Made by a program: the position numbers and the translations under genes. Source: Chloroflexota bacterium (GTDB lineage Bacteria > Chloroflexota > Anaerolineae > Promineifilales > Promineifilaceae). Taken from it: 15,121 nt of DNA. Under the pieces are notes generated by a model. The model did not search any database and had not been told where the DNA came from. It saw only the letters and a program-made list of their open reading frames with translations. The stretch lies in NCBI GenBank assembly GCA_008501785.1, contig QQUD01000386.1, positions 1-15,121 on the forward strand, given 5' to 3'. This document shows, one piece after another, positions 4 through 13,948 of the stretch (its first letter is position 1; each line of letters starts with the position of its first letter).

Positions 4-957
4 TCACGCTGCGGGCATATGGACATTTGCCTGATGGCGTTGGCTGATAAGAACGGCCGTTTCCGCTACCACTTGGCGTAATTCAGAGGGAGCCAACACC
101 TCCATCCCGGCCCCCCAACTCAATAACCAACCAATAATTCGATCGAGCGAACGCGGTTGATACACAGCTTCAATCCAGCCATCTGCGGTTGGATTTGAAG
201 CGATGTGTGAAAAATGATTTCGTTCTTGCACCCAACGACTTATTTCAGGGGCAAATCGAACCGTCACAGTTACATCCCCGTGCATGCGGTCCCGGTCTGG
301 CAGATGGTGTGGGATAAACTTTTCATCGGTGATGTGCAGATGGTCGATGCGATCTAGCCGAAAAATACGCTCACTTTGGCGCAATCGGCAGTAGCCCACC
401 AGCATCCACGCTTTGTCTAAAAACACCAAGTGTGACGGTTCAACCGCGCGCTCGGTGATGCGGTTTGAGTGCAAAGCATGGTAGCGCAAACGGACCATTT
501 GCTGCCGATGGATGGCTTCTTGCAAGCTGACAAACGTGGCATCATCAAAATTGAGCGGCGGTGAGGGAAATGAGTAAAAATGCAAGATTGCTTGTAGGGC
601 TTCAACTTGTCGTCGCGTTGCATTTGGGAGAACGGTTTGGATTTTGGCTAGGGCTGAGGAAACGGCCGTTTTCGTCTCCCCCTCACTTGTAAACCCATCT
701 AGCATCGCTACTGCTAAAAACAACGCACGCGCCTCGTCTGGGGTGAACATGATGGGCGGTAAATAGTAGCCATCCATCAGCCGATATCCCTCACCGGGCA
801 TCGCCGAAATTGGCACCCCCACTTCACTCAATGCCTGCATATCCCGATAAACAGTGCGTTCGCTTATTTCAAACTGCTTCGCAATATCTTGTGCCCGTAT
901 TAGCTCACGGCTTTGCAACATGATCAAATAGCCCATCAAACGATCAATTCGGTTCAT
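4..957 (-). CDS. YafY-like HTH/WYL-domain transcriptional regulator
   Basis: Cytosolic DNA-binding regulator of the YafY/DeoR-like class, 317 aa. Residues 1-60 form a winged helix-turn-helix (AQDIAKQFEISERTVYRDMQ), followed by the family's GEGYRL segment. Residues 145-210 match a WYL domain, with WML at 184-186 in place of W-Y-L and the characteristic FRLDRI at 199-204. The C-terminal third fits the WCX extension. WYL domains are thought to sense ligands such as nucleic-acid pieces or small molecules; the effector here is unknown. I chose the ATG at 955-957 because AGGAAA lies just upstream and MNRIDRL is the usual family N-terminus. A GTG at 994-996 would add 13 unlikely residues. The gene is divergent from the hybrid kinase across about 90 bp, so it may control that gene or itself. 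It carries two copies of the ACGGCCGT palindrome. The family is clear; the target is not. Confidence 0.92.
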   Translation of the reverse strand: MNRIDRLMGYLIMLQSRELIRAQDIAKQFEISERTVYRDMQALSEVGVPISAMPGEGYRLMDGYYLPPIMFTPDEARALFLAVAMLDGFTSEGETKTAVSSALAKIQTVLPNATRRQVEALQAILHFYSFPSPPLNFDDATFVSLQEAIHRQQMVRLRYHALHSNRITERAVEPSHLVFLDKAWMLVGYCRLRQSERIFRLDRIDHLHITDEKFIPHHLPDRDRMHGDVTVTVRFAPEISRWVQERNHFSHIASNPTADGWIEAVYQPRSLDRIIGWLLSWGAGMEVLAPSELRQVVAETAVLISQRHQANVHMPAA

Positions 958-1025
958 ATTTCCTATTCCAACAGGGTTGAATTGGGTCAGAATCACACAT
1001 TTTACTTACTTCGCCCCATAATCTT

Positions 1026-1031
1026 TATGAT
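1026..1031 (+). promoter_or_regulatory. candidate -10 element for the hybrid kinase
   Basis: TATGAT matches the sigma70 -10 consensus at 5 of 6 positions, with only a poor -35 (TTACTT near 1002). Transcription would begin about 1037, leaving roughly 10 nt before the ATG at 1047, or no leader at all for the TTG at 1038. No Shine-Dalgarno is visible, so leaderless or near-leaderless translation is possible. Weak call. Confidence 0.33.
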
Positions 1032-1046
1032 ACACTGTTGTCACCC

Positions 1047-3647
1047 ATGACCAAATTGAATGAATCGGACACGTTTGAGCGCGTTAGCCGCCGGGAAGTT
1101 GATTTTTTACATGCCATCAATGCGATAGCGGTTTCATTGCAATCGGCTGTTCATTCAGAAACGGCCGTTTTTAATGCCTTCACCGAGCAGTTTGTCAAAC
1201 TGGGATTACATGGCAGTATCAACCTGATTGACTCAACAGGTCAATTCATGGTTGTGCGGGCTATGGCAATGCCGTCGAAATTACAAAAAATCATTAAAGC
1301 AGTTGAAAAGTTAATTGGTTTCAGTCTTGAAGGCTATCGATACAATGTTGAAAAATCAAGCCTAAATCAAGATGCCATAAAAGCTGGTCAAACCATTTTC
1401 ATGCGAGACAATAGTCAAAGAATCAGGGAAGTGATGCCTAAAGCCAGCCAAACAGCGATAAATTTGATGGTCAAATTTTTTACTGGGCACCCATCTATCA
1501 CAGCACCTATTATGGCAAACGAGGGAAAAATCCAAGGGCTGCTTTATGCATCTGGTGAATGGCTAAAAGAGTCAGATGTGCCAGCCATTACTGCTTTTGC
1601 CAATCACATTTCCATCGCATTAAAAAACGCTAGACTCATGGAAGAAATGCAAACAGCGAAGGCCTCTATGCAGCGTGTCAATTCCACACTTGCCGCCTCA
1701 CGTGATGCGATTCATGGATTAGTACAGCAAATGCCGGTTGGTATTCAAGTATTTGATCCAGATGGCCTGTGTGTCGATGTTAATGAAACCCATTTAAACA
1801 TTTTTGGAACCACTAAAAAACAGCTTGTTCGAAATTACAATATTTTTACAGACCCCTTTGCCGCAGAAATTGGTATTCATGCAGCGGTGGATCGTGTATT
1901 GGATGGCGAGGTTGTGCAGATGGGCGACCTCGATTTTTATTTTGAGCAAGCTGACGGCCGTTTTTCTCAAAAAAATGGGCAACGCACAGTTAATGTGACG
2001 CTTTTTCCTGTATTTGGTAGCGCGGGTCAGGTGGTGCAGTTTGTACGCCTGAATGTGGATGTGACTCAGCGCAAAGAAAATGAAAAAGCATTAAGTCATA
2101 TGAGTGTTGAACTCGCACAGCAAAGACAAATGATTGATGCGATGCTGACCACAACGCCTGATGGTTTTTCTTTTATGGATATAAACGGCCGTTACTTATA
2201 CGCTAGCCCGCTTGTCTTGCATGATTTTCAAATGACAATGCCAGAAATTATCGGTAAAACCTGGTCGGAAATCGGGGTTTCCAAAGAGTTAAATGAAAAA
2301 GGCAATCAGGCGATTCAGCAAATGCTTGATACGGCAAAACCAGTGATGATTGAGTATGGTTATTGGCTAAATGATGAATATCATGAACGTGAATTTATTT
2401 TTAGCCCGTTAATCAGTCCGCAAGGGGAAATCTTTCGATACGTCATTACTTCTCGTGAAGTAACAGAGCGCAAGCGTGAACTGGCAGCATTCCAAGAAGC
2501 GCAAAAAATGGAAAGTCTTGGCATTTTAGCAGGGGGGATTGCGCACGATTTTAATAATTTGTTGGTTGCCATGCTGGGGCAAACATCGTTAGCATTGAAA
2601 AAATTGCCGGAGGACAACTCGGCTCGTCCAAACATTCAAAAAGCAATGAATGCAGCACAAAAAGCAGCTGACCTCACACGCCAAATGCTGGCTTATTCAG
2701 GACGCGGCAACTTTGAAGTACAGCCGCTAAATCTCAATCAATTGATTGAGGAGAACCTTCATTTGTTTAACGTTGTGATTCCGAATCCTGTCGAATTCGT
2801 CTTGAATTTGCAGCCAACTCTTCCGTTTGTGGATGCTGATCCGGGTCAAATGCAGCAAATTGTGATGAATTTATTGCTAAATGCTGCGGAAGCATTGGAA
2901 AAACACGGGGGAACGATTGTCGTATCGACCTTAGAGATGATGATTGAAAATGAAAATGTCGCGTTATGGCGGCGAGCGAATCAAACACTCAAACCAGGAA
3001 AGTATGTCGCTTTGCGCGTTGCAGATGATGGGGTGGGCATGGATCAAGACACGGTTCAGAAGATTTTCGATCCTTTTTTCACCACAAAATTTACGGGACG
3101 AGGGTTGGGGTTAGCGGCCGTTTTGGGCATTGTGCGTGGGCATTATGGTGGATTACGTGTGTTGAGTCAGAAGGGTGATGGTACAACGTTTGAGATTGTT
3201 TTCCCAATTAGCCAAAAATCTAAAATTGAGCCGAAATCTGATGTTGATGATGTTTTGACAAAATCTGGCGTTGTGCTGGTGATTGATGATGAGCAAGGGG
3301 TGCGGGAATTTGTTCAAGAAATTTTAGGGTCGGAGGGGATTGAGGTGATAACGGCCGTTAACGGCCAAAACGGCATCAACATTTTTCAACAGCGCCATCA
3401 CGACATTAACCTCGTGTTGCTCGATCTCTCCATGCCCGGGATGAGTGGTGTGGAAACATGCTCACAATTGCGCCAAATCAACCCAAACATACCTATTTTG
3501 CTTGCATCAGGTTATAGCGAGGCAGAATCACTTGGTCATTTTAAACAAGATAACGGCTTAAGTGGATTTATCCAAAAACCTTTTCATATGCAGACCCTTA
3601 TTCGTACAATTTATACACATTTGCCAAATCGTGTTGACAAGCCCTAG
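1047..3647 (+). CDS. soluble hybrid histidine kinase (GAF-PAS-PAS-HisKA-HATPase-REC)
   Basis: Sensor kinase of 866 aa with no membrane segment, so probably cytosolic. Numbered from ATG 1047: a GAF-like domain at about 15-200, a PAS domain at about 220-345 (MPVGIQVFDPDGLCVDVNE), and a second PAS at about 365-480 (TPDGFSFMDINGRYLY). HisKA follows with phospho-acceptor H500 in GGIAHDFNNLL. The ATPase domain has N612 (NLLLNAAEA), G1 box DDGVGM (660-665) and G2 box GRGLGLA (684-690). The C-terminal receiver has D793 in LLDLSMPGMSG and K844 in QKPF. All catalytic and phospho-acceptor residues are present. The expected relay is H500 to D793. No DNA-binding output and no adjacent response regulator are visible, so the output partner is elsewhere or the receiver is regulatory. 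TTG 1038 would add three residues. The sensed signal cannot be read from the sequence. Confidence 0.95.
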   Translation: MTKLNESDTFERVSRREVDFLHAINAIAVSLQSAVHSETAVFNAFTEQFVKLGLHGSINLIDSTGQFMVVRAMAMPSKLQKIIKAVEKLIGFSLEGYRYNVEKSSLNQDAIKAGQTIFMRDNSQRIREVMPKASQTAINLMVKFFTGHPSITAPIMANEGKIQGLLYASGEWLKESDVPAITAFANHISIALKNARLMEEMQTAKASMQRVNSTLAASRDAIHGLVQQMPVGIQVFDPDGLCVDVNETHLNIFGTTKKQLVRNYNIFTDPFAAEIGIHAAVDRVLDGEVVQMGDLDFYFEQADGRFSQKNGQRTVNVTLFPVFGSAGQVVQFVRLNVDVTQRKENEKALSHMSVELAQQRQMIDAMLTTTPDGFSFMDINGRYLYASPLVLHDFQMTMPEIIGKTWSEIGVSKELNEKGNQAIQQMLDTAKPVMIEYGYWLNDEYHEREFIFSPLISPQGEIFRYVITSREVTERKRELAAFQEAQKMESLGILAGGIAHDFNNLLVAMLGQTSLALKKLPEDNSARPNIQKAMNAAQKAADLTRQMLAYSGRGNFEVQPLNLNQLIEENLHLFNVVIPNPVEFVLNLQPTLPFVDADPGQMQQIVMNLLLNAAEALEKHGGTIVVSTLEMMIENENVALWRRANQTLKPGKYVALRVADDGVGMDQDTVQKIFDPFFTTKFTGRGLGLAAVLGIVRGHYGGLRVLSQKGDGTTFEIVFPISQKSKIEPKSDVDDVLTKSGVVLVIDDEQGVREFVQEILGSEGIEVITAVNGQNGINIFQQRHHDINLVLLDLSMPGMSGVETCSQLRQINPNIPILLASGYSEAESLGHFKQDNGLSGFIQKPFHMQTLIRTIYTHLPNRVDKP

Positions 3648-3682
3648 CCCATTTGTTAATATCTCCCCCACAACTAAATAAC

Positions 3683-3688
3683 TATAAT
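3683..3688 (+). promoter_or_regulatory. candidate -10 element of the SAM-riboswitch operon
   Basis: TATAAT is a perfect sigma70 -10 match about 35 bp upstream of the aptamer, but I find no good -35 at the usual spacing. Transcription would begin near 3695, inside the perfect dyad at 3691-3718. Confidence 0.42.
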
Positions 3689-3690
3689 GC

Positions 3691-3718
3691 TGTGATAAAT
3701 ATAAAATAATTTATCACA
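3691..3718 (+). repeat. perfect 10-bp dyad at the predicted transcription start
   Basis: TGTGATAAAT (3691-3700) is exactly inverted as ATTTATCACA (3709-3718) around an 8-nt A/T spacer. It lies directly downstream of the TATAAT box and just upstream of the SAM aptamer. It could be an operator for a dimeric repressor or a 5'-end mRNA hairpin. The dyad is seen directly; its role is inferred. Confidence 0.6.
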
Positions 3719-3721
3719 CAC

Positions 3722-3833
3722 TTCTTATCCAGAGAGGCGGAGGGACCGGCCCGCAGATGCCTCAGCAACCGTTCTAATCAGTAGAAAAGGTGCTAATTCC
3801 GGCAGAAGTCAAAGAACTTCTGGGAGATGAGGG
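3722..3833 (+). ncRNA. SAM-I (S-box) riboswitch aptamer
   Basis: The conserved SAM-I core is present almost to consensus: CTTATCCAGAGAGG, GGAGGGACCGGCCC, CAGCAACC and GGTGCTAATTCC. P1 forms between CTTATC (3724-3729) and GATGAG (3826-3831). P3 is TTCTA/TAGAA around 3777-3781. P4 is CAGAAGT (3803-3809) with ACTTCTG (3816-3822). In this class, SAM binding stabilises P1 and permits a downstream terminator, lowering transcription when methionine/SAM is plentiful. The next gene is a transsulfuration enzyme of methionine synthesis, as expected. An antiterminator can be drawn between 3825-3832 and 3857-3864 (one mismatch), which would compete with both P1 and the terminator. Confidence 0.97.
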
Positions 3834-3855
3834 GTGGCGAACTATGAAACTGTGA

Positions 3856-3893
3856 GCCTCTTCTGAAACTTCTAGAAGAGGCGTTTTGTTTTT
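3856..3893 (+). terminator. SAM-riboswitch terminator 1
   Basis: A perfect 9-bp stem, GCCTCTTCT (3856-3864) with AGAAGAGGC (3874-3882), has a 9-nt loop and is followed by GTTTTGTTTTT. It is the expected intrinsic terminator of the expression platform. Its 5' arm can instead pair with the 3' strand of aptamer stem P1. Confidence 0.9.
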
Positions 3894-3906
3894 AGAACAC
3901 TAAACG

Positions 3907-3945
3907 GCTCTTTGCTCTGGATAACTATGAGCGAGGAGCTTTTTT
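3907..3945 (+). terminator. second, tandem terminator before the metB-like gene
   Basis: An 11-bp stem, GCTCTTTGCTC (3907-3917) with GAGCGAGGAGC (3929-3939) including two G-U pairs, has an 11-nt loop and is followed by six T residues. It lies 13 bp after the first terminator's T-run and ends 9 bp before the ribosome-binding site. Both hairpins must be passed to express the operon. It also contains an in-frame upstream ATG (3927). Confidence 0.8.
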
Positions 3946-3965
3946 GTTGGCAGAAAGGAAGGATT

Positions 3966-5222
3966 ATGACGGACAAAAAAAATGTAAACGAAACGAATAA
4001 ATCTGGAAAACACACGATGGGTCCGTCAACTCGTGCAGTTCATGGACGTGTGGACCTGCGGCAGCCGAATGCGAATTACGCGCTGACGACCCCCATTGTG
4101 CAAACGGCAACGTATACATTTGAAAATACAGCCGAATTGTGCGAATTTCAGGAAGAAAAGTTGTGGGGCAAAAAGCTGAAACGGCGTGAATACAATCGCT
4201 ATGGAAATCCCACTGTGAAAGCTGTGGAACAACGACTGGCCGCCCTCGAAAATGCGGAAGCTGCTATTTTGTTTCCAACGGGCATGACGGCCGTTACCAA
4301 CGTGCTGCTTTCCATCTTGCCCACCGGCAGCCACGTCATCTACACCGATGATTGCTACAACAAAACCCGTGAATTTTGCACAACTTTTTTGAAGCGGCTG
4401 GGCATTGAATCAACAATGGTAGCGATGGGTAATTATGAAGCAATAGCAGCAGCCATTCAACCCAACACGCGCATCATCCTCAGCGAAAGCCCCACAAACC
4501 CCTATTTGCGCGTGGCCGATTTGGCTCGTATTGCAGCAATTGCCAAACAGCACAAACGCATCAAAACCATCATTGATGCCACGTTTGCCACGCCAGTCAA
4601 CCAAAATCCACTCGATTTTGGCATCGATTTAGTCATTCACAGCGCCACAAAATATTTAAGCGGACACAATGATGTGATGGGTGGTGCGGTTGTCGGTGAG
4701 GCTGGCTTGCTGCAAGCACTGCGCCAGAGCCAGGGTGTTTTGGGTGGGGTTTTGGACCCACATGCCGCCTTTTTGCTGGAACGTGGGTTAAAAACGCTGG
4801 ATTTGCGCGTGCGCCATCAAAACCAGGCGGCACAAACAGTTGCTGAGTATTTGGAAAGTCACCCCATAGTTGATCGGGTCTGGTATCCAGGGCTGGCATC
4901 CCATCCCGAGCATGAGGTGGCAAAGGCGCAAATGCGTGGTTTTGGCGGCGTGGTTAGCTTTGAGGTTAAGCCCAAGAATGATGAAAAACCAGTGGATGCA
5001 GCATCAAACCTTATTGATGCTGTGCAGATTCCGCTGATTGCACCCAGCCTGGGTGGTGTAGAAAGTCTCATCATGCAACCAGCATTGGTTTCGTATTATG
5101 ACCTGTCAACTGAAGAAAGGTTGGCACTTGGTATTAAAGATAATTTGGTCAGGTTAGCCATTGGCGTGGAAGATACGGCGGATATTGTGGCAGACCTTGA
5201 GCAAGCGTTAGGGAGATTTTGA
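3966..5222 (+). CDS. metB: cystathionine gamma-synthase (plant-like transsulfuration PLP enzyme)
   Basis: PLP-dependent Cys/Met-metabolism enzyme, 418 aa, expected to condense an activated homoserine ester with cysteine to cystathionine in methionine synthesis. The PLP-binding lysine is K229 in HSATKYLSGHND. YNRYGNPT, ESPTNPYLR, DATFATPVNQ, LGGVLDPHAAFLL, YPGLASHPEHE and the C-terminal IKDNLVRLAIGVED are family motifs. From memory they resemble plant cystathionine gamma-synthase closely. Start ATG 3966 follows AAGGAAGGA; TTG 3912 and ATG 3927 lie within or next to the terminator stem and lack a ribosome site. The SAM-I riboswitch supports a methionine-pathway role. Aspartate kinase starts one base after the stop, so the two are co-transcribed. 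Alternatives are O-acetylhomoserine sulfhydrylase or a gamma-lyase; sequence alone does not settle the sulfur donor or the ester. Confidence 0.9.
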   Translation: MTDKKNVNETNKSGKHTMGPSTRAVHGRVDLRQPNANYALTTPIVQTATYTFENTAELCEFQEEKLWGKKLKRREYNRYGNPTVKAVEQRLAALENAEAAILFPTGMTAVTNVLLSILPTGSHVIYTDDCYNKTREFCTTFLKRLGIESTMVAMGNYEAIAAAIQPNTRIILSESPTNPYLRVADLARIAAIAKQHKRIKTIIDATFATPVNQNPLDFGIDLVIHSATKYLSGHNDVMGGAVVGEAGLLQALRQSQGVLGGVLDPHAAFLLERGLKTLDLRVRHQNQAAQTVAEYLESHPIVDRVWYPGLASHPEHEVAKAQMRGFGGVVSFEVKPKNDEKPVDAASNLIDAVQIPLIAPSLGGVESLIMQPALVSYYDLSTEERLALGIKDNLVRLAIGVEDTADIVADLEQALGRF

Positions 5223-5223
5223 T

Positions 5224-6630
5224 ATGACATTGGTAATGAAATTTGGTGGAACGTCGGTGGGGAGTGCGCAGGCCTTGCGGGAAACGGCCGTTTTGATTCA
5301 ACAAACACAAAAAGCATGGGGGCAAGTCGTTGTGGTGGCGTCGGCGATGGGGTCGAAGCCGGTGAAGGTGACAGACTTGCTGCTGGATGGGGCCAATGCG
5401 GCTGCTGCTGGTGATGGTGAATTGTACAAGCAGAATGCAGAACAACTGCGCCAGATTCATTTTGCAGCGATTGATGGCTTGTTGTCACCAGAAAATGAGC
5501 GGCAGATGGTGTTGGCGGAAAACGGCCGTTTTATCGATCGTTACGAAGCACTCTGCCAGGCCGTTCATGTGCTGGGTGAACTCAGCCCACGCGCACTGGA
5601 TGCAATCGGGGGCATGGGTGAGCAAATGAGTGTTCGCATTTTGGCGGCATATTTGCGTGAAGTTGGCTATCAGTCAGAGGCGATTGATGCGACAGAACTG
5701 ATTGTGACAGATGATAATTTCCTGGCAGCTTCCCCTGATTTTGTGGCAACAGCAGAGAAGACGGTGGGGCGATTACGGCCGTTTCTAGCCGAAGGTGGCA
5801 TTCCCATCGTCACTGGCTTTATTGCGGCGACGCCTGAAGGTGTGACCACGACCCTAGGCCGTGGTGGTTCTGATTTTAGTGGTGCTATTCTGGGGCAAGT
5901 GCTGGACGCCGATGAAGTGTGGATTTGGACCGATGTGGATGGTGTTATGTCGGCCGATCCGCGCATTGTGGCAGATGCACACAATATCCCGATTTTGAGC
6001 TATCGTGAAGTGTCAGAACTGGCATTTTACGGCGCAAAAGTGCTGCATCCCAAAACAATGCGTCCCTGTATCGAAAACAATATCCCGCTGCGCATCAAGA
6101 ATACATTTAATCCAGATCACTCCGGCACGGTCATTGTGCCACATCGTGGACACAATAACGGCGCAATCAAAGCGGTAACAGCCATTAAACGACTGGGTCT
6201 CGTCACAGTTGAAGGGAAAGGCATGTTGGGGATTCCCGGTATTGCTGCGCGCACGTTTGGCGCAGTTGCCAAAGCGGGCAAAAGTGTGCTGCTCATCAGT
6301 CAGGCATCATCTGAGCAATCGATTTGTTTTGCTGCACCAGATAATGCAACCGACGATATCATTGCAGGTTTAGAAGCTGAGTTTGATGAAGAGTTGCAGC
6401 GTCAGGACATCGACAAAGTGTGGTCGTTAGAACCGGTTTCGATTGTGACGATTGTTGGCGGCGGCATGCGCGGAACAAAGGGTGTCTCAGGACGAATTTT
6501 TACAGCGTTGGGTGATAATGATGTTAATGTTATAGCCATCGCGCAAGGTTCCTCAGAATGCAGCATTAGCGTGGTGGTTGACGATAAAGATACTGCCCAA
6601 GCCGTGAGCAGCATTCACGCCCTGATTTAA
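5224..6630 (+). CDS. lysC: aspartate kinase (monofunctional, two ACT domains)
   Basis: Phosphorylates aspartate, the first step towards lysine, threonine and methionine; cytosolic, 468 aa. The amino-acid-kinase domain occupies about 1-300: KFGGTSV (6-12), IGGMGEQMS (128-136), LGRGGSDFSGAILG (211-224) and WTDVDGVMSADPR (235-247). Two ACT regulatory domains follow (about 322-395 and 404-468), with ISQASSEQSICF and IAQGSSECSISVVV motifs. It resembles the kinase part of ThrA but has no homoserine dehydrogenase domain, so allosteric inhibition by lysine or threonine is likely; which one cannot be told. ATG 5224 lies one base after the metB-like stop, with its ribosome site (AGGGAG) inside the upstream gene, which suggests translational coupling. 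The kinase is therefore also under the SAM riboswitch. Confidence 0.95.
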   Translation: MTLVMKFGGTSVGSAQALRETAVLIQQTQKAWGQVVVVASAMGSKPVKVTDLLLDGANAAAAGDGELYKQNAEQLRQIHFAAIDGLLSPENERQMVLAENGRFIDRYEALCQAVHVLGELSPRALDAIGGMGEQMSVRILAAYLREVGYQSEAIDATELIVTDDNFLAASPDFVATAEKTVGRLRPFLAEGGIPIVTGFIAATPEGVTTTLGRGGSDFSGAILGQVLDADEVWIWTDVDGVMSADPRIVADAHNIPILSYREVSELAFYGAKVLHPKTMRPCIENNIPLRIKNTFNPDHSGTVIVPHRGHNNGAIKAVTAIKRLGLVTVEGKGMLGIPGIAARTFGAVAKAGKSVLLISQASSEQSICFAAPDNATDDIIAGLEAEFDEELQRQDIDKVWSLEPVSIVTIVGGGMRGTKGVSGRIFTALGDNDVNVIAIAQGSSECSISVVVDDKDTAQAVSSIHALI

Positions 6631-6643
6631 CCAACCATTCTGT

Positions 6644-6718: not shown

Positions 6719-6724
6719 AGAAGA

Positions 6725-6789: not shown

Positions 6790-6794
6790 TGGTA

Positions 6795-8645
6795 TTATGA
6801 TTTTTCGGCCCATAGTTTTTGCATTTCGTCGCAGCGGGTTAAGAGTTCGTTGAGCGTGCCAATGTCAGCAATACGGCCGTTTTTCATCACAACGATCTGA
6901 TCAGCTCTCTGCAACGCCGCCCGCCTATGCGATACAACCAAACAGGTCGGCGGCAACCCATTTTCCGTTTTCCGTTTTCCGTTTTCCGTTTTTTGTTGCA
7001 ACAGCCTTCCCCACAACTGCTGCTCCGTCTCCACATCCAACGCACTCGACAAATCGTCGAATACCAGCAATTCCGCATCCCGTACAAACATGCGCGCAGC
7101 GGCAGTACGCTGAATTTGGCCGCCAGAGAGGCGGACGCCGCGAGGACCCACCATTGTCGCCAATCCATCTTCCATTTCGTGCAGGTCTTGGGTGAAAACG
7201 GCCGTTTCCACCGCCCCCAGCACCGCATCTTGCGACTTTGGCAGGCCCAGCAAAATATTGTTGTTCAGCGAATCGCTAAACAGCCGGGGAACTTGAGCCG
7301 TATAAGCGACACGTGGTGGCACAAAAAACGTAGTCGGATCTTCAATCGAATCGCCATTCCACAAAATTGCGCCTGTTTGCGGCGGCAGCAAACCCAGCAG
7401 CACTTTTAACAGTGTCGTTTTTCCAGACCCAATGCGCCCAGTGATGACAGTAAAACTTCTCTGCTGCAGCGAAAAGCTAATATTTTCGATGCCATGCCCT
7501 TTCCCGTTTAGCTGATTGCTGACACCTGATACCTGATCGCTCCCCCCGTACCGATATGTCAAATCATTTACAACTAGCGATTCAAAACGATGAACGGCCG
7601 TTTTCTCCACATCTTCAAGCTCTGGCGCAGGTTCGCGCAGGTAAATTGGGTTATGCTGCACCACCGTACCAGGGGGCAAGCCTTGCATAATCGCATCCAT
7701 GCGCTGGGTCGAAATGCTGACTTGCTTGTAGCGCGTAATCAGATTGCCCGCCATCCGCATCAGGTGGGTGGAAGGCCAAATGTACGATGCAAACAAAGCA
7801 AAGTCGCCCACGCTGAATGCGCCAGCAAACATCGCTTGTGCTGCAGCCAGCAAAATGAAGCCCATGCCAATATCGACTGTGCCGCTGCTGAGTGCATCGA
7901 TGAGCTGCGTGAGCAGCTTGTCTTTTACCATTGCCGTGCGCCGTTGATCGTTGATCTGGCGAAAACGGCGAATGATGCGTTCTTCCGCGTTGGCAACTTT
8001 TAGCGCCTGGGTGGCGTTGAACATGTCCGCAATCATGCCGGTCACTTCGGCAGTGGCGGCACGGCTGTTTTTGCGATACCGTTTTGCCAGCGTACCCAGC
8101 CGCTGGGCAATGATGATAATGATGACAAGCGGCGCAAATGTGCCCAGTGTGACCCAGACATTGATGCGAAACATGATGGTGAAGGAGATAACGGCCGTTA
8201 CCGTCAGCGCAATCACATCATCAATCACAATCACCGAATGCACCATCTCCTCTACGTCATCCCGCAGTGTGCTAATCACCTTTCCCGAACTCATGGGAAC
8301 GCCGCTTTGCTCAATTGGCAATGCCTTGCCTCCCGGCATTTCTAAAATGCGATGCATCATGTTGCGTGTCAGCAGCGCCATGCCGTGTTCGGTAAACGAG
8401 ATATATGCCATCACAGCCGCAAAAAGAGTGATAATTGACAGCAAGAGCTGCAAAAGCTGCACGCCAATAACAGGCGTTAATGTCAAACCAAAGCCCTGAT
8501 CACCTGTCAAGCCGTTAAAGAAGGCGCGTAAAACAAGCCCTAACACGGTTGTCAGCGCAAAATGAACCGTCGCACCGGTAACGTCCGTCGCGTAGTAGCG
8601 CGGCCTAAATTTCATTAATTCCCAAAAATAGTGATAGGTTTTCAT
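6795..8645 (-). CDS. ABC exporter half-transporter, degenerate-site subunit
   Basis: 616-aa membrane protein with a type-I exporter membrane domain (about 1-320, six hydrophobic segments) fused to an ATPase domain (about 355-616). Motifs: Walker A GRIGSGKT (403-410), Q451, canonical signature LSGGQ (506-510), Walker B LLVFDD (526-531) and switch H573. The residue after Walker B that is normally the catalytic glutamate is D531. The preceding operon gene has the opposite pattern, so the two should form a heterodimer with one active and one degenerate site. Two low-complexity segments, residues 367-385 and 552-563 (KTENGKRKTENG), are encoded by heptamer repeats and look like insertions in an otherwise compact domain. 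The ATG at 8645 has only a weak ribosome site (GAAGAG). Substrate unknown; multidrug, lipid or peptide export are the usual roles. Confidence 0.93.
   Translation of the reverse strand: MKTYHYFWELMKFRPRYYATDVTGATVHFALTTVLGLVLRAFFNGLTGDQGFGLTLTPVIGVQLLQLLLSIITLFAAVMAYISFTEHGMALLTRNMMHRILEMPGGKALPIEQSGVPMSSGKVISTLRDDVEEMVHSVIVIDDVIALTVTAVISFTIMFRINVWVTLGTFAPLVIIIIIAQRLGTLAKRYRKNSRAATAEVTGMIADMFNATQALKVANAEERIIRRFRQINDQRRTAMVKDKLLTQLIDALSSGTVDIGMGFILLAAAQAMFAGAFSVGDFALFASYIWPSTHLMRMAGNLITRYKQVSISTQRMDAIMQGLPPGTVVQHNPIYLREPAPELEDVEKTAVHRFESLVVNDLTYRYGGSDQVSGVSNQLNGKGHGIENISFSLQQRSFTVITGRIGSGKTTLLKVLLGLLPPQTGAILWNGDSIEDPTTFFVPPRVAYTAQVPRLFSDSLNNNILLGLPKSQDAVLGAVETAVFTQDLHEMEDGLATMVGPRGVRLSGGQIQRTAAARMFVRDAELLVFDDLSSALDVETEQQLWGRLLQQKTENGKRKTENGLPPTCLVVSHRRAALQRADQIVVMKNGRIADIGTLNELLTRCDEMQKLWAEKS
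6961..6995. repeat. heptanucleotide tandem repeat (TTTTCCG)x4 inside the ABC gene
   Basis: Four exact copies of TTTTCCG run from 6961 to 6988, followed by a degenerate fifth (TTTTTTG). Read on the minus strand they encode the KTENGKRKTENG segment between the D-loop and the switch histidine. Gain or loss of one or two units would break the frame; three units would keep it. Confidence 0.95.
7511..7538. repeat. degenerate heptamer repeat inside the same ABC gene
   Basis: Four successive heptamers, GCTGATT, GCTGACA, CCTGATA and CCTGATC, encode part of the low-complexity stretch at about residues 369-379, upstream of Walker A. It has the same 7-bp period as the repeat at 6961 but a different sequence. 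Confidence 0.8.
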
Positions 8646-8664
8646 ATGCTAAGTCTCTTCGTTT

Positions 8665-8696: not shown

Positions 8697-10473
8697 AATT
8701 GATTACGGTACCTTGCTCTAAACCCGTTTGCAATAAATTGTAAAATTGCGAATTGAGGTCAGTTGCCAAATTTAGGCGGTTGTCGTGTTCGAGAATACGG
8801 CCGTTTCCCAACACCATAATCTCGTCTGCACGCTGTACTGTTGCCAGCCGGTGGGCAATGATAATGACTGTGCGTCCTGCTAACAGCTTGTCCAGCGCAC
8901 GTTCAATGAGCTGCTCAGTCGCCGGGTCGAGCCGTGAAGACGCTTCATCGAGAATCACCAGACCGGGGTCTGCCAAAAAGACGCGAGCCAGTGCTAAAAG
9001 CTGTGCTTCGCCAGCCGATAGATTTTCAGCCGCATCGAGGCGCGTGTCTAGTCCATTGTCCAACTCATTTAGCCAGTTTTGCAGCCCAAGCTCAATTAGA
9101 GATGACAAAATGCGTTCATCGCTGATGTGCTCGTTGAATAAAGTGAGATTGTCGCGCACGCTGGCGTGAAATAGCTGCACGTCTTGCGTGACCATGCCGA
9201 TGTGCTGCCGCACTGTTTGCTGCTGCAACTGGGGCAGAGCAGCCATGTTGTCCTGGCTGTTTCCAAGTAAAATTGTGCCGCTGGTGGGATCGTAGAAGCG
9301 ATAGAGCAGCCGGGTAATGGTGGTTTTACCGCTGCCGGTGCGCCCGAGCAGCCCGAGAATGCGACCTGGTTGCAGGTGGAAGTTGATGTTGGAGAGAACG
9401 GCCGTTTCATCATCCTCATAATGAAATGATACATCTTCAAACTGCACCGCCAATGAACCAGAGGGCATTGTTGCTACCGGTCCATCCCAAATGGTCGGCT
9501 GTTCAGCAAACAGCGCCGATATTCGATTTAGGCTGGCTGCCGCCTGCTGTAAATCTTGAATATAGCGTTGAATTGTCCACAGCGGCGACTTGAGCACGTC
9601 GATGTAGTAAAAAATGAGGTACACCGTGCCAATTGTGAGTACGCCATTACGAAATAGTTGATCCCCCCAAATGTATGCTGCAATGTACGCCAGCGTCGGC
9701 ACCACGATGGGCAGCGACATAATTACTAGGTTGAGTCGCATTGCGTGTTGTTTGGCTTGCCACCGGTCTCGCAGCAGCCTATACAGTCGATTCATCACGT
9801 AAGGGGCCGCACGATTTGTCTGAATTTCCTCAGTGCCATTTAACCACTCTTCAAGATAGCCAAACAAGTCAGAGCTGATCTGGCGCAGGCGTTCCCAGCG
9901 AGGGACAGTGTAGGTTTTGATCCAGTTCAGCACAAACAACCCAACGCCAGCGATGAGTGTAATGGTCAAACCTACGCGCCAATCAACCAGCCACAGCAGC
10001 ACAATCACGCCAATGATGAGCAAAAAATTACTGAGCAGTTGGATGATTAGCTGGGAGAAGAAGTTGGCTAATTTGTTTACGTCGCCATCTACACGTTCGA
10101 TTAGTTCGCCCGGTTTGTGTGTTTTATGAAACGACATGTCGAGCTTGAGGCAGTGCAGCGCTAGATCGGCTCGCAGGTGATTGGTAGCTGTCCAGGCCAC
10201 GTTTTCACCGATGTAAGTGGCCGCAACTTTGATGACTTGTGCCAGAAGGGCGATCCCTATAAATATTGCCGACGTGATGAACAGTTCGCGTAGAGTGCGA
10301 CCCGTTTCCACTGCGTCTAAAAAGCGGCGAACAAGCTGCGGATTGATCAATTGCAGGGTAATGCTGCTGATGATCAGTCCAGTTAAGAGTGCCACCGCTT
10401 TTTTCTGTGGCTGCATGTAGGTCTTTAGCAGCTGCCAATATGAGATGGTTGGTCGTTCTTTTGTATTTATCAT
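8695..10473 (-). CDS. ABC exporter half-transporter, catalytic-site subunit
   Basis: 592-aa membrane protein with a type-I exporter membrane domain (about 15-315, hydrophobic segments near 27-47, 66-86, 143-163, 168-186, 250-270 and 277-293) and an ATPase domain (about 340-575). Motifs: Walker A GRTGSGKT (377-384), Q430, Walker B LVILDE with catalytic E510, and switch H541. The signature is LSAGE (485-489), not LSGGQ. This pairs with the downstream gene, which has a normal signature but lacks the catalytic glutamate. The ATG at 10473 follows GGGAAAA. It is the first of the two ABC genes; the next starts 49 bp downstream across a strong hairpin. The SDR gene lies 127 bp upstream on the same strand, so all three may share a transcript. 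Substrate unknown. Confidence 0.94.
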   Translation of the reverse strand: MINTKERPTISYWQLLKTYMQPQKKAVALLTGLIISSITLQLINPQLVRRFLDAVETGRTLRELFITSAIFIGIALLAQVIKVAATYIGENVAWTATNHLRADLALHCLKLDMSFHKTHKPGELIERVDGDVNKLANFFSQLIIQLLSNFLLIIGVIVLLWLVDWRVGLTITLIAGVGLFVLNWIKTYTVPRWERLRQISSDLFGYLEEWLNGTEEIQTNRAAPYVMNRLYRLLRDRWQAKQHAMRLNLVIMSLPIVVPTLAYIAAYIWGDQLFRNGVLTIGTVYLIFYYIDVLKSPLWTIQRYIQDLQQAAASLNRISALFAEQPTIWDGPVATMPSGSLAVQFEDVSFHYEDDETAVLSNINFHLQPGRILGLLGRTGSGKTTITRLLYRFYDPTSGTILLGNSQDNMAALPQLQQQTVRQHIGMVTQDVQLFHASVRDNLTLFNEHISDERILSSLIELGLQNWLNELDNGLDTRLDAAENLSAGEAQLLALARVFLADPGLVILDEASSRLDPATEQLIERALDKLLAGRTVIIIAHRLATVQRADEIMVLGNGRILEHDNRLNLATDLNSQFYNLLQTGLEQGTVIN

Positions 10474-10600
10474 AATTTTCCCAAATGGTTATGCACATTT
10501 CCCAGGGAATCATCTTATGGGAAACGGCCGTGTTCGTAAACTGCACCAAAGTCCGATGTTTTTGCAGGTGCTGGACGGTATAATTGATCCCATCAATTGC
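10474..10600 (-). other. intergenic gap between SDR and ABC genes
   Basis: 127 bp without a gene. It holds an AATTGAT/ATCAATT inverted repeat (10582-10598, 3-nt loop) just after the SDR stop and the only non-coding copy of ACGGCCGT (10524-10531). I find no convincing promoter or U-tract terminator, so read-through from the SDR gene is possible. Confidence 0.5.
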
Positions 10601-11479
10601 TTACATGCCATGTCCCCCACCAACGTAAAGTCGCTGCCCGGTTATCCATTGTGCTTGGTTTGATGCGAGGAAAACGGCCGTATCGCCAATATCTTTTGGC
10701 GTACCCAGTCGTCCCATCGGAATGGTAGGTAAAAGTTGCTCCTCCATTTCAGGTGTAATGTAGCCGGTTTGAATAGGACCGGGTGAAATCGTGTTAACGG
10801 TGATGCCAAATTGTCCTAATTCGGTGGCGGCACTGCGGGTATATCCTTCCAGTGCTAATTTGCCAGCCCCATACGTTACCTCAGATGGAAACACATACGC
10901 GCCTGCCGTGCTGATGTTAATGATGCGGCCCCACTCTGCGTTGCGTTGTACCTGACGATGGGCAAATTCAGCCATAATGAGAGCAACAGCCCGCGTGTTG
11001 ACCGCAAAAATGCGATCAATGCTGCCCGCATTAATTGTTTGAGGGCGCGCCGTCCACATTTCGACCATTTTGTTGCGGGTGCTGCCTTTGACCGGAACGA
11101 AGGTGTCTGCTTCCCAGTAAGCGGCATTGTTCACGACAATGTCTACAGGACCGAGTGCTTTTTCTGCGGCATCGAATAGGGTGGAAACGGCCGTTTCCAC
11201 ACCCAAATCTGCTTCCCAGGCAACCGCTTCTGCACCCAGTTCGCGCAAATTAGTTAAGACTTCATCGGCCGTTTTTTGGCTTTGTGCAGTGTAAAATAGT
11301 TCACCAGGTTTATCTGTAAGGGACGGAACCACTTCACCAACAATCGGCGGACGAAAGTAGTGCAAAAACAATCGGATGCCCTGGTTGGCAAACGCTTTGG
11401 CAATGCCTGCACCAATGCCATATGGGTTATTGGCTCCTGTAATGATTGCTATTTTCCCTTTCAATCCTGTATCTAACAT
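10601..11479 (-). CDS. SDR-family NAD(P)-dependent oxidoreductase
   Basis: Short-chain dehydrogenase/reductase of 292 aa, soluble. The Rossmann nucleotide motif is TGANNPYGIG (14-23), followed by NNAA (117-120), a serine at 190 in IINIST, and the catalytic pair Y203 and K207 (YGAGK). PGPIQTGYI (233-241) and the C-terminal QWITGQRLYVGGGHGM match FabG-like enzymes. It is about 40 residues longer than a typical FabG because of extra sequence at about 43-66 and 125-152. Start ATG 11479 is preceded by GGAG at 5-nt spacing. A longer reading frame to 11542 would translate straight through an intrinsic terminator and is rejected. The gene sits behind the leader ORF and terminator and upstream of the two ABC genes. 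The substrate cannot be told. Confidence 0.93.
   Translation of the reverse strand: MLDTGLKGKIAIITGANNPYGIGAGIAKAFANQGIRLFLHYFRPPIVGEVVPSLTDKPGELFYTAQSQKTADEVLTNLRELGAEAVAWEADLGVETAVSTLFDAAEKALGPVDIVVNNAAYWEADTFVPVKGSTRNKMVEMWTARPQTINAGSIDRIFAVNTRAVALIMAEFAHRQVQRNAEWGRIINISTAGAYVFPSEVTYGAGKLALEGYTRSAATELGQFGITVNTISPGPIQTGYITPEMEEQLLPTIPMGRLGTPKDIGDTAVFLASNQAQWITGQRLYVGGGHGM
11181..11200. repeat. 20-bp perfect palindrome centred on the iterated octamer
   Basis: GTGGAAACGGCCGTTTCCAC is its own reverse complement. It is the longest perfect extension of the ACGGCCGT word in the window and lies within the SDR coding sequence (ETAVST). Confidence 0.95.
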
Positions 11480-11488
11480 GAAAACTCC

Positions 11489-11520
11489 AAAAAAAAACCC
11501 CACATGTTGGACATGCGGGG
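11489..11520 (-). terminator. intrinsic terminator (attenuator) upstream of the SDR gene
   Basis: In minus-strand RNA, CCCCGCATGT (11520-11511) pairs with ACATGTGGGG (11507-11498) over 10 bp with one G-U and a 3-nt loop, followed by nine U residues. It lies between the leader ORF and the SDR ribosome site, only 1 bp upstream of GGAG, so it must be read through for the SDR gene to be expressed. Confidence 0.88.
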
Positions 11521-11548
11521 CTAATTCAAAAATTGATGACAAGGAGGC

Positions 11549-11647
11549 TTAAAGACAGTTGTATGCCAACCGCCTTCCAACCTTCGGATTACCGAAAAGC
11601 CAACGCATACCGGGCGCTTTGGGTGTGTGGTGACTAAATAAGATCAT
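11549..11647 (-). CDS. putative 32-aa leader peptide of the SDR-ABC operon
   Basis: A small ORF starts with ATG at 11647 behind an excellent Shine-Dalgarno (AAAGGAGG, 5-nt spacing) and ends with TAA at 11549. The peptide begins MILFSHHTPKAPGMRWLFG and ends RRLAYNCL. It has no run of a single amino acid typical of His, Trp or Leu attenuators, no signal peptide and no recognised family. A perfect promoter-like sequence lies upstream and an intrinsic terminator downstream, before the SDR start. Right after its stop, CCTCCTT (11547-11541) can pair perfectly with its own Shine-Dalgarno. The arrangement suggests a regulatory leader whose translation controls read-through. Alternatives are an exported small peptide handled by the downstream ABC pair, or a structured RNA with a chance ORF. 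Not tested by conservation. Confidence 0.55.
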   Translation of the reverse strand: MILFSHHTPKAPGMRWLFGNPKVGRRLAYNCL

Positions 11648-11685
11648 CGGTTCCTCCTTTAAATAAGGCTGTTTAGCTGACGGAG

Positions 11686-11714
11686 ATTCTACCGGTTCCA
11701 TTTGGGTCTGTCAA
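11686..11714 (-). promoter_or_regulatory. sigma70-type promoter of the leader-SDR-ABC operon
   Basis: Reading the minus strand: TTGACA (11714-11709), a spacer of exactly 17 bp, then TAGAAT (11691-11686). This is a perfect -35 and a 5-of-6 -10. Transcription would start near 11679, giving about 30 nt before the leader ATG and a leader transcript of about 200 nt before the SDR start. Confidence 0.68.
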
Positions 11715-11861
11715 CGATGAACAAATTCTCATACAGTTGCCGCTGTAAAAGGGTGGTTGTAAACTCATACTAACCCAAGTTGCTTGCCAAATTGTCCCAA
11801 AATTCATTTTGGGTCTAATGAGGTTAAAAACACGATAAATCGTGTTCATCAAGAGCGTTTT

Positions 11862-12031
11862 AACCTGATTATGAAGGTTAAGAAAATAAAACAGTAATAG
11901 AGAACTTGTCATTCCTGCGAAGGCAGGAATCCAAATTGAGTCGAGTAGATTCCTGCCTTCGCAGGAATGACAGGACAAAATTCGTGGTTTTTCTATTACC
12001 TGATTAATTATTTAACCTCCATTATCAGGTT
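11862..12031. mobile_element. MITE-like element with imperfect ~42-bp terminal inverted repeats
   Basis: The left arm, starting AACCTGATTATGAAGGTTAA (11862), recurs inverted on the right, ending at 12031. The reverse complement there reads AACCTGATAATGGAGGTTAA. Similarity continues to a shared TAATAGA, with roughly four in five positions identical by eye. The interior holds a second, perfect inverted repeat (11907-11972). No transposase is present. This could be a non-autonomous element invaded by a REP-like doublet. T-rich bases flank both ends, but a target duplication is not certain. Confidence 0.5.
11907..11972. repeat. REPIN-like pair of inverted palindromic repeats
   Basis: 25 bp at 11907-11931 are exactly inverted at 11948-11972 with a 16-bp spacer. 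Each arm is itself a hairpin (ATTCCTGC, GAAG loop, GCAGGAAT). Two inverted REP-like units with a short spacer is the organisation called a REPIN, and the core resembles the GTCATTCCTGCGAAGGCAGG family of dispersed repeats found in many bacteria. Confidence 0.85.
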
Positions 12032-12036
12032 TTTTG
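11998..12036 (+). terminator. possible terminator formed by the right end of the element
   Basis: ACCTGAT (11998-12004) pairs with ATCAGGT (12024-12030) and is followed by six T residues. It could block transcription entering the aldo/keto reductase from the repeat region. The stem is short and the loop long. Confidence 0.4.
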
Positions 12037-12136
12037 TATGGAACAGCTTGTGAATTCATTTATAGGTGACAAAAATAGCAACTTGAGATGAAATAGCGTA
12101 ATTAAAAAAGCTGAAAGCATACGAGGAGTATTAAGA

Positions 12137-13135
12137 ATGGAGTATCGTCGTTTAGGAAAATCTGGTTTAAAAGTTAGCGAATTGTCATTTGGCTCATGGG
12201 TTACCTTTGGTAATCAGGTAGACATTGATAATGCTGTAGAAATCATGAAAGTTGCCTACGATGGTGGTGTTAACTTTTTTGATAATGCCGAAGTTTATGC
12301 GCAAGGCAAATCTGAGTTGGTAATGGGGGCCGCACTGAAAAAGCTAAATTGGTCACGTGACAGTTACATTGTTTCGAGCAAGGTGCTCGGTGGTGCTGTG
12401 CCTAATCCGAAACCAACACAGCGTGGTTTAAGCCGTAAACATATCTTTGAGGCGTGCCATCAGGCAATGGAACGGCTGCAAGTCGATTATCTAGATCTCT
12501 ATTTTTGCCATCGCCCTGACCCAGAAGTGCCGATGGAAGAGGTGGTGCGGACGATGACGGAACTGATTCAACAAGGTAAGGTGTTTTACTGGGGCACGTC
12601 GGAATGGTCGGCGCAGCAATTGATGGAAGCGCACAGCGTGGCACGGCAGTACAATTTAATTCCGCCAACGATGGATCAGCCGCAGTACAATATGTTCCAT
12701 CGGGATCGGTTTGAGGTGGAATACGGCCGTCTTTACGACACCATCGGCCTTGGCACAACCATTTGGTCACCACTGGCATCTGGTATTCTCACCGGCAAGT
12801 ACAACGATGGCGTACCGGATGATTCACGGATGAACCTTCCTGGCTATGAATGGCTGCGTAAAATGTTCGAAGGCGAAGCGTGGCAGGCACGTTTGGAAAG
12901 TGTACGGACTTTGACCGGCATGGCCGAAGAGATGGGAACCACCATGGCGCGGCTGGCAATTGCCTGGACATTGAAAAATCCAAACGTGAGTACCGTCATT
13001 TTGGGCGCTTCTCGCATTTCCCAGCTTGAAGACAATTTGCAAGCGTTAGACGTTGTTTCGCAGCTAACTGATGATGTGATGGAAAAGATTGAAGAAGTGT
13101 TGCAGAATAAACCTGCACCGATGGAATTTCAGTAA
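12137..13135 (+). CDS. aldo/keto reductase (Kv-beta/AKR6-like)
   Basis: NADPH-dependent oxidoreductase with a TIM-barrel fold, 332 aa, cytosolic. The family tetrad is visible as D49 and Y54 (FFDNAEVYAQGKSE), K82 (SSKVLGG) and H125 (DLYFCHRPDPE). YRRLGKSGLKVSELSFGSW at the N-terminus, GTSEWSAQQLMEA, QPQYNMFHRDRFE, WSPLASGILTGKY and the cofactor-binding VILGASRISQLEDNL match the voltage-gated potassium-channel beta-subunit-like group. Bacterial members reduce aldehydes and ketones; no channel partner is present. ATG 12137 is preceded by GAGGAG at 8-nt spacing. The gene starts about 105 bp after the repeat-rich region and is divergent from the SDR-ABC operon. The physiological substrate cannot be inferred. 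Confidence 0.95.
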   Translation: MEYRRLGKSGLKVSELSFGSWVTFGNQVDIDNAVEIMKVAYDGGVNFFDNAEVYAQGKSELVMGAALKKLNWSRDSYIVSSKVLGGAVPNPKPTQRGLSRKHIFEACHQAMERLQVDYLDLYFCHRPDPEVPMEEVVRTMTELIQQGKVFYWGTSEWSAQQLMEAHSVARQYNLIPPTMDQPQYNMFHRDRFEVEYGRLYDTIGLGTTIWSPLASGILTGKYNDGVPDDSRMNLPGYEWLRKMFEGEAWQARLESVRTLTGMAEEMGTTMARLAIAWTLKNPNVSTVILGASRISQLEDNLQALDVVSQLTDDVMEKIEEVLQNKPAPMEFQ

Positions 13136-13141
13136 AAGAGG

Positions 13142-13196
13142 GGTGCAAGGGGCAGGTTGCAAGGGGTAAAAAACGCCTTGCACCTTGTATCTTGCG
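13142..13196 (+). repeat. intergenic hairpin built from heptamer repeats
   Basis: Degenerate heptamers TGCAAGG, GGCAGGT and TGCAAGG (13144-13164) face CCTTGCA, CCTTGTA and TCTTGCG (13176-13196). GGTGCAAGG (13142-13150) pairs exactly with CCTTGCACC (13176-13184), and a longer stem with one bulge forms from 13154. It fills the gap between the reductase and the acetyltransferase. No T-run follows. Confidence 0.7.
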
Positions 13197-13210
13197 CCTC
13201 ATATTGAAAA

Positions 13211-13948
13211 ATGTTATCTCAAAAACGACAAGCGATTCGACACTTATTAGATGAACAAAACCCGGAAGATGCGATGGCGGCTTATTTCGCATTTTATCAC
13301 CCGGACAATATGACAAACATTGTCACTTATCCGGCCGATGCAGACCGGGCAACCGGTTATCTGGCATTTTCGCGTACAGGGATGGATTTGTTTCGTCCGC
13401 TGGTGACGCTGCGGCTGCCGCAAAATGACATGCAGGCTGGCGCGGGATTGATTGAGCAGGCGGTCGGGCCGGGAACGGCCGTTTTTCTCAGCAGTCGTCC
13501 GCAAGATTATCCGCTGGTGCAGGCCATGTTTGACATTCAAACCGAAGAAACATTGTTGACGTATGAGTTAGACCGCAACCGATTTGAGCCGATTATTAAT
13601 GTATTTGTGACCCGCAGCAAAGGTCCCAATAGTTTACCTCGTTTTGTGATTCAAAAGTCAGAGGGTAACAATCAGATGATGGCTGCGTCTGCTGGACTTA
13701 ATTGGCTTTCACCGATATTTGGCGAAATATCGGTGAACACATCACCTAATTATCGCCGCCGTGGGTGGGGGCGTAGTGTGGTGGCATCGATGGTGAATTA
13801 TTTATTGGAAAACGGCCGTAAACCCCTCTATGTTGTCTCCCAACAAAACGAAGCCTCTATGCAATTAGCCGAGCGTGTCGGCTTTACGTATCGTGGCATT
13901 CAGCAAATTTTGGTACAAGCTGTACGCCGTTCTCCACAGAGTAAATAA
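13211..13948 (+). CDS. GNAT-family N-acetyltransferase
   Basis: 245-aa soluble protein. The C-terminal half (about 145-235) has the GNAT acyl-CoA fold: GEISVNTSPNYRRRGWGRS (171-189) contains the acetyl-CoA pyrophosphate-binding R-x-x-G-x-G segment, and VSQQNEASMQLAERVGF (209-225) is the usual motif B/C end. The N-terminal half (1-140) is not recognised; two-part proteins of this kind occur among FR47-like acetyltransferases. Start ATG 13211 lacks a clear Shine-Dalgarno, and the hairpin of heptamer repeats just upstream may separate it from the reductase, 75 bp away. A perfect 13-bp inverted repeat lies inside the gene (13708-13737). It carries two ACGGCCGT copies. The acceptor substrate is unknown. 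Confidence 0.88.
   Translation: MLSQKRQAIRHLLDEQNPEDAMAAYFAFYHPDNMTNIVTYPADADRATGYLAFSRTGMDLFRPLVTLRLPQNDMQAGAGLIEQAVGPGTAVFLSSRPQDYPLVQAMFDIQTEETLLTYELDRNRFEPIINVFVTRSKGPNSLPRFVIQKSEGNNQMMAASAGLNWLSPIFGEISVNTSPNYRRRGWGRSVVASMVNYLLENGRKPLYVVSQQNEASMQLAERVGFTYRGIQQILVQAVRRSPQSK
13708..13737. repeat. perfect 13-bp intragenic hairpin
   Basis: TTCACCGATATTT (13708-13720) is exactly inverted at 13725-13737 with a GGCG loop. It lies within the acetyltransferase, just before the acetyl-CoA-binding motif. Confidence 0.95.

Follow-up and report, generated by a model that had tools for sequence, protein, structure and literature searches.

ACGGCCGT, a maintained HIP-like word in one order of the Chloroflexota

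The 15,121-nt stretch of Chloroflexota DNA analyzed here (contig QQUD01000386.1, hereafter called the window) carries the palindromic octamer ACGGCCGT 22 times, each copy at the position where a first-pass annotation of the letters had placed it. That annotation had proposed a genome word resembling HIP1, the highly iterated palindrome (HIP) of cyanobacteria, with a different sequence. The locus raises the question of whether such a word exists beyond the window, what keeps it in place, and what might read it. Genome counts, codon-controlled tests, and conservation in place among relatives support the proposal: ACGGCCGT is almost certainly a maintained HIP-like word, not HIP1 itself, in one Chloroflexota order. 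The genome-wide tests were performed on relatives from the order Promineifilales, which stand in for the window's own genome; because the window carries 1.45 words per kb, its genome is taken to behave like theirs. The existence and maintenance of the word are established in these relatives; its reader and purpose we infer.

The word in the window and across the order

Equal-base arithmetic predicts about 0.2 copies per window, as the first-pass annotation had stated, and dinucleotide shuffles agree (n = 200; mean 0.20, maximum 2). Among the 256 palindromic 8-mers, ACGGCCGT ranks first in over-representation in the window. The flanks prolong the palindrome (77% of half-sites have A at -1, 68% have A at -2, and 61% have G at -4), and the full AACGGCCGTT claimed for 13 copies is confirmed by the contexts of 13 of the 22. 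ACGGCCGT is its own reverse complement and has no orientation; it shows neither the strand asymmetry of DNA uptake sequences (DUS) nor the orientation of Chi or KOPS (FtsK-orienting polar sequences). As had been observed before, all copies but one (21 of 22) lie within chosen reading frames, and the words are read in differing frames.

Such a word could be a side product of base composition or of codon or dipeptide preference, and peptides like T-A-V and N-G-R do permit ACGGCCGT. When synonymous codons were shuffled in the 10 window genes (n = 500), a mean of 1.37 and a maximum of 5 words were obtained, against 21 intragenic words observed; codon usage does not account for the enrichment. In the relative G020, a codon shuffle expects 44.8 words where 376 are found. 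Furthermore, a sample of the class (396 genomes drawn) gave at most 430 copies in each of the 360 genomes not already covered, and the outer base pair is swapped between sister lineages (see below). Codon shuffles and the codon-matched conservation described in the next section refute this explanation, which we regard as extremely improbable.

The aspartate kinase of the window is 70-79% identical to that of word-rich Chloroflexota metagenome-assembled genomes (MAGs; L001-L009 and L011, for example, Ardenticatenaceae CFX1, CFX8, and BJ8). The order, as used here, consists of the 56 genomes of the order of G002 and includes the genomes behind these loci as well as the Promineifilum sp. MAG L010; NCBI taxonomy assigns Promineifilum and Candidatus Leptofilum to Promineifilales. 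MAG completeness is not stated for these genomes, and their sizes are rounded. Genomes were classed by their main word as A-word (ACGGCCGT), T-word (TCGGCCGA), G-word (GCGGCCGC), or flank-free (CGGCCG without a dominant flank). The genome-wide count that had been suggested as a check places 27 of the 56 genomes far above expectation, with 2,984-15,176 copies of ACGGCCGT (0.99-2.10 per kb), whereas the reversed word, which served as control, occurs 40-459 times in the same 27 A-word genomes. Neither of the outcomes named beforehand as refuting the proposal, counts close to expectation or an origin in codon usage alone, was obtained, the first being judged in relatives. Expressed per million bases, these 27 relatives carry 990-2,100 copies, within the range of about 500-2,500 that passages of Elhai 2015 (PMC4390886) give for HIPs genome-wide. 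ACGGCCGT is the top palindromic 8-mer in the sampled stretches of all 25 readable A-word genomes (those of the other two, G026 and G038, read as N), and G027 is intermediate with 2,887 copies or 0.44 per kb. CGGCCG falls below composition (313 against 462 expected in 977 kb) in L018-L080, related loci from beyond the order.

The distribution along the chromosome bears on the possibility that ACGGCCGT is a nucleoid or chromosome-organization mark bound by an architectural protein, a role that a part of PMC6604393 suggests for HIP1. The word density in G020 is similar within and between genes (2.06 versus 1.84 words per kb), which would suit such a mark. On the other hand, the 488 words in 240 kb of G020 are spaced at random to mildly clustered (coefficient of variation of the gaps 1.13 versus 1.00 for random, 97.5% limit 1.09), regular spacing was not found in these 240 kb (the top Rayleigh peaks, at 53-90 kb, span too few cycles to judge), and the word also occurs on phage contigs. 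An architectural role is therefore considered quite improbable.

Sites held in place beyond protein need

The comparison of orthologs, likewise suggested by the first-pass annotation, was carried out in close species on a single syntenic stretch (at most 60 kb of G003), with 8-mers of the same base composition as controls. It was found that ACGGCCGT sites are conserved beyond protein need. All 31 of 31 words are common to G003 and G021 (controls 0.61), 49/50 to G003 and G019 (89% identity; controls 0.52), 79/86 to G003 and G020 (85% DNA identity; controls 0.36), and 34/37 to G003 and G004 (controls 0.37). The remaining close pairs yielded 49/53 for G019-G020 (controls 0.30), 34/37 for G019-G004 (0.39), and 37/41 for G020-G004 (0.28). 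Against G002, at about 73-74% identity, 6/13 and 7/15 words were common versus 0.07 and 0.09 for the controls. One-base variants of ACGGCCGT are kept only at control level (0.26-0.61, counted in both directions), and the flanks of the words are conserved no better than control flanks. When matched for amino acid and codon, 176/180 (98%) of the third codon positions within words are identical versus 0.66 expected, and three further pairs gave 78/79, 113/115, and 83/86 (expected 0.60-0.66 overall). A match to rpoB was obtained for 28 of 30 genomes. Within this gene, one word is co-located in 18 of the 28 (three of these flank-free), another position is common to 13 genomes, and two more to 9 each. 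The sites are thus held in place by a selection-like force that goes beyond protein need.

The loss rate of words relative to controls (ratio 0.058-0.145, seven comparisons) translates into a scaled preference S of 3.1-4.3, assuming one mutation rate for words and controls. At equilibrium, such a preference predicts a 23-76-fold excess. Relative to base composition, and with a pseudocount included, the five compared genomes show a 19-49-fold excess and G002 a 62-fold one. Conversion bias has the same steady state as selection, and this agreement between loss rate and excess fits both equally. Biased mismatch repair or conversion might accordingly make and keep ACGGCCGT as an epiphenomenon without function, comparable to the GmeC-directed repair of Elhai. 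The core contains GGCC and hence a GC with a methylatable C, which this model requires according to passages of PMC4390886. The same passages let the gain saturate at about one site per kb, from which we infer even spacing, yet the gaps in G020 have the coefficient of variation of 1.13 given above. Those passages also describe one-base deviations from HIPs as concentrated at the first and last base. As a fingerprint of repair, this pattern did not discriminate here and was dropped: the first or last base accounts for 469/730 deviations in 25 A-word genomes and 180/282 in 11 word-poor genomes, 64% in both. With the methyltransferase survey below also taken into account, we consider biased repair unlikely, though worth keeping in view.

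The positions of the word in the window are given in Table 1. Four CGGCCG cores with other flanks had been listed as well, of which three were placed correctly; the fourth starts at 11266 instead of the claimed 11276.

Table 1. Copies of ACGGCCGT and additional CGGCCG cores in the window
Feature	Positions	Strand	Basis
ACGGCCGT in AACGGCCGTT	53..60		exact match
ACGGCCGT in AACGGCCGTT	662..669		exact match
ACGGCCGT in AACGGCCGTT	1161..1168		exact match
ACGGCCGT	1954..1961		exact match
ACGGCCGT in AACGGCCGTT	2185..2192		exact match
CGGCCG core, other flanks	3115..3120		exact match
ACGGCCGT in AACGGCCGTT	3351..3358		exact match
ACGGCCGT	4287..4294		exact match
ACGGCCGT in AACGGCCGTT	5284..5291		exact match
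ACGGCCGT in AACGGCCGTT	5522..5529		exact match
ACGGCCGT	5775..5782		exact match
CGGCCG core, other flanks	5951..5956		exact match
ACGGCCGT	6873..6880		exact match
ACGGCCGT in AACGGCCGTT	7198..7205		exact match
ACGGCCGT in AACGGCCGTT	7594..7601		exact match
ACGGCCGT in AACGGCCGTT	8191..8198		exact match
ACGGCCGT	8797..8804		exact match
ACGGCCGT in AACGGCCGTT	9398..9405		exact match
ACGGCCGT, sole extragenic copy	10524..10531		exact match
ACGGCCGT	10674..10681		exact match
ACGGCCGT in AACGGCCGTT	11187..11194		exact match
CGGCCG core, other flanks	11266..11271		exact match
ACGGCCGT	12723..12730		exact match
CGGCCG core, other flanks	13332..13337		exact match
ACGGCCGT in AACGGCCGTT	13475..13482		exact match
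ACGGCCGT	13812..13819		exact match

Other sequence features were also seen. The ABC transporter gene at 6795-8645 of the window contains a short tandem repeat at about 6940-6990, read as KTENGKRKTENG in the protein. A minus-strand frame at 11673-11978 contains HSCEGRNLLDS...PAFAGMT and presumably resembles the translation of a dispersed palindromic repeat present in many bacteria. Among the relatives, a frame at L430 (contig C849 of G044) starts with YGLVGSEMCIRDR, which we take to be translated sequencing-adapter contamination; the contig end may be an artefact.

Dialects of the outer base pair and words on mobile contigs

Across the order the CGGCCG core is kept, and the outer base pair changes between lineages. 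The T-word TCGGCCGA reaches 9,414 copies in G022 and 7,668 in G035 but does not exceed 298 in any of the 27 A-word genomes, and the G-word GCGGCCGC occurs 36 times in 35 kb of G047. The flank-free genomes G023, G016, G051, G052, G017, and G053 carry CGGCCG at 9.5-22 times the composition expectation with no dominant flank (in G016, A makes up 40% of the flanks). Enrichment is about 2-5 times in the flank-free G010, G012, G014, G015, and G041-G044 and 2.4-4.9 times in the likewise flank-free G048-G050 and G054-G057, where it should be noted that some samples behind these dialect enrichments measure just 4-14 kb. No clear CGGCCG excess was seen in G029, G013, and G033 (1.2-1.3-fold). In G032 (loci L177, L214, L491, and L492) the core is depleted to 0.3-fold, and TGCCGGCA serves as the word instead, with 3,665 copies genome-wide versus 14 of ACGGCCGT (26 TGCCGGCA in 22 kb). 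An rpoB tree, with several weak deep forks and with G052 and G017 left out, groups G035 with G022 and G023, and G053 with G016 and G051. An in-place swap from A-word to T-word was rejected for rpoB, where the T-words in G022 and G035 occupy none of the six positions at which at least two genomes have an A-word. Outside these dialects, CGCCGGCG was observed 28 times in 15.6 kb of the Anaerolineae MAG locus L030, where GCCGGC is about 8-fold over composition, as a further HIP-like word; in L018, also from an Anaerolineae MAG, the cyanobacterial HIP1 core CGATCG is about 6-fold over composition (48 in 21 kb).

As far as passages of PMC4390886 and PMC6604393 describe it, HIP1 (GCGATCGC) shares with ACGGCCGT the form of an 8-base palindrome far above expectation at about one per kb, sites reported to be under selective maintenance (a finding cited in PMC6604393), a palindromic extension of the flanks (in some genomes for HIP1), and the lack of an agreed function. 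ACGGCCGT is nevertheless not HIP1 proper, as both sequence and phylum differ: the core is CGGCCG instead of CGATCG and has no Dam-like GATC inside, and the methyltransferase matched to ACGGCCGT is a candidate. Alternate HIPs such as GGGATCCC, TCGATCGA, GGCGCC, and others likewise show one palindrome taking the place of another among related genomes, and TCGATCGA differs from HIP1 by an outer-pair change only, like TCGGCCGA from ACGGCCGT. In the portions of PMC4390886 concerned, they are sporadic in few cyanobacterial genomes, whereas here one core appears in several dialects throughout a whole Chloroflexota order. By title, none of the open-access PubMed Central (PMC) papers containing ACGGCCGT concerns genome words or Chloroflexota. 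Neither CGGCCG together with methyltransferase and Chloroflexi nor "overrepresented palindrom" together with Chloroflexi was found in open-access PMC text, and a text search of a set of open-access metaepigenome papers did not find CGGCCG. Part of PMC6329791 reports Chloroflexi bins (CL500-11) methylated at GANTC, TTAA, and GCWGC.

The word is also found on mobile DNA. The IMG/VR database was scanned for two ACGGCCGT within 30 bases, a search that favours dense contigs; it gave at least 120 stretches, 80 of which were taken as loci. Among the matches listed, 16 of the 80 loci examined have at least 5 words and at least one per kb. L343 (with a terminase) and L356 (with a terminase-like protein and a portal) are phage contigs at a density of 1.94-1.96 words per kb. 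Densities of 2.8-3.7 words per kb, versus a host-mean maximum of 2.1, occur in L308 and L363 (one contig), L345, L296, and L304; these are less surely viral, with few phage hallmarks among the frames tested. In eight tested IMG/VR loci the words go beyond the codon-shuffle expectation. Under biased repair, conversion would extend to phage DNA that replicates in the cell.

These elements also matter for the idea that ACGGCCGT is a DUS-like word for uptake or self-recognition, which would mark kin DNA for natural transformation or spare it from a defence nuclease. DUS and uptake signal sequences (USS) occur in thousands of copies and have lineage dialects. The density and conservation of ACGGCCGT resemble those of uptake words, its outer pair forms lineage dialects, and it is carried by the two terminase-bearing phage contigs and by the other elements of this density-biased search. 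However, DUS and USS are not known to be palindromes, whereas ACGGCCGT is one. We regard such a role as improbable.

Candidate readers of the word

The palindromy of ACGGCCGT and the TCGGCCGA and GCGGCCGC dialects suggest a reader with two-fold symmetry whose specificity varies. We tentatively favour, as a possibility somewhat short of probable, that ACGGCCGT is recognized by a protein that reads DNA across the genome, most likely an orphan DUF1156-like methyltransferase. A sequence-specific protein would read the word symmetrically on any DNA in the cell, the candidate being a conserved DUF1156-like enzyme of about 660-690 amino acids. Its methyl mark might be put to use in repair, replication, or self-recognition, every site would contribute a small fitness gain, and the dialect would change when the outer-base specificity of the reader shifts.

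The core of ACGGCCGT is composed of C and G only. A common PF00145 cytosine-5 methyltransferase was rejected as the reader, being present in just 26/56 genomes and in unrelated clusters: at 40% identity, 41 PF00145 loci fell into 21 singletons and five groups, the largest made up of nine loci in seven genomes, a set in which L089 (G018) comes from outside the order and five singletons lack a usable reading frame. The same distribution counts against biased repair, which needs a C-methyltransferase; moreover, G053 has no PF00145 or PF01555 match, and those of G020 are all weak and include the DUF1156-like candidate itself. Vsr was rejected as a common cause as well and also argues against biased repair, as it is found in just 8/56 genomes. 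PF01555 (N4-cytosine/N6-adenine) gave matches in 52/56 genomes, 45 of them over the cut-off, and was rejected as a common cause. A PF01555 methyltransferase locus was seen to be 97% identical over 2.3 kb between L123 (G021) and L124 (G003), while the two genomes are 91-95% identical in the syntenic region compared above; this high identity perhaps reflects recent exchange.

Weak PF01555 matches led to the 660-690-residue DUF1156-like enzyme, which contains an HKWWARR stretch, a glycine-rich stretch, and DPPY; we take the latter two to be motifs I and IV, respectively. As whole proteins, three representatives score 40.7-54.9 bits against PF01555 (40.7 for G020), and they match part of the anti-phage-associated methyltransferase model DUF1156_antiphage (NF042963) at 70.8-75.8 bits (E 2e-21). 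From this model the candidate differs in its score (75.8 bits versus a cut-off of 1000), its length (674 residues versus 960), and its varying neighbours: the adjoining frames are alike in the close loci L448, L450, and L453 and differ elsewhere (12 of 30 loci viewed). A structure model of the relative P0001 has a mean pLDDT (predicted local distance difference test) of 86, and a fold search with it returned only generic methyltransferase folds, none with E below 0.001. Strong matches (E below 1e-70) occur in 43/56 genomes, namely in 25/27 A-word, 2/2 T-word, 1/1 G-word, and 0/6 strongly enriched flank-free genomes; G032 and G054 have weak matches only, and G013, G033, and G048 have none.

Several observations weigh against this enzyme as the reader. 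The strong A-word genomes G045 and G046 lack it. Conversely, it is present in the low-word genomes G010, G012, G014, G015, and G041-G044, which have no dominant palindrome, and in G027, G029, G049, G050, and G055-G057, which have no dominant palindromic word. In the T-word genome G035 the match is spread across two reading frames, in G011 it holds an internal stop, and several other matches are partial. The enzyme also belongs to a large family: of the proteins scored, 1,665 match at E up to 0.001. That it is missing in the flank-free genomes amounts to approximately two independent events (rpoB tree, 4/6 genomes, weak deep forks), and the absences are read from MAGs of unstated completeness. 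Because two word-rich genomes lack the enzyme and many word-poor genomes have it, the word, going by the data, neither requires the enzyme nor follows from its presence; the enzyme is a lead.

A more far-reaching version, in which the CGGCCG core with its lineage-specific outer pair forms an order-wide code that is read by the orphan DUF1156-like methyltransferase and obeyed by resident phages, appears unlikely at present, if by no means far-fetched. If true, the changing specificity of one methyltransferase would rewrite thousands of sites per genome. HIP1 has been without an agreed function since its description in the 1990s, and ACGGCCGT adds a second strong case from another phylum. Sister species whose word has other outer letters or lacks flanks, or that have no such word, offer natural contrasts for testing candidate readers, and phage-borne words help to tell chromosome-bound roles from those on any DNA in the cell. 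Finally, the estimate that one scaled preference, of about 3-4, accounts for excess and conservation alike makes a measurable force of an over-represented word.

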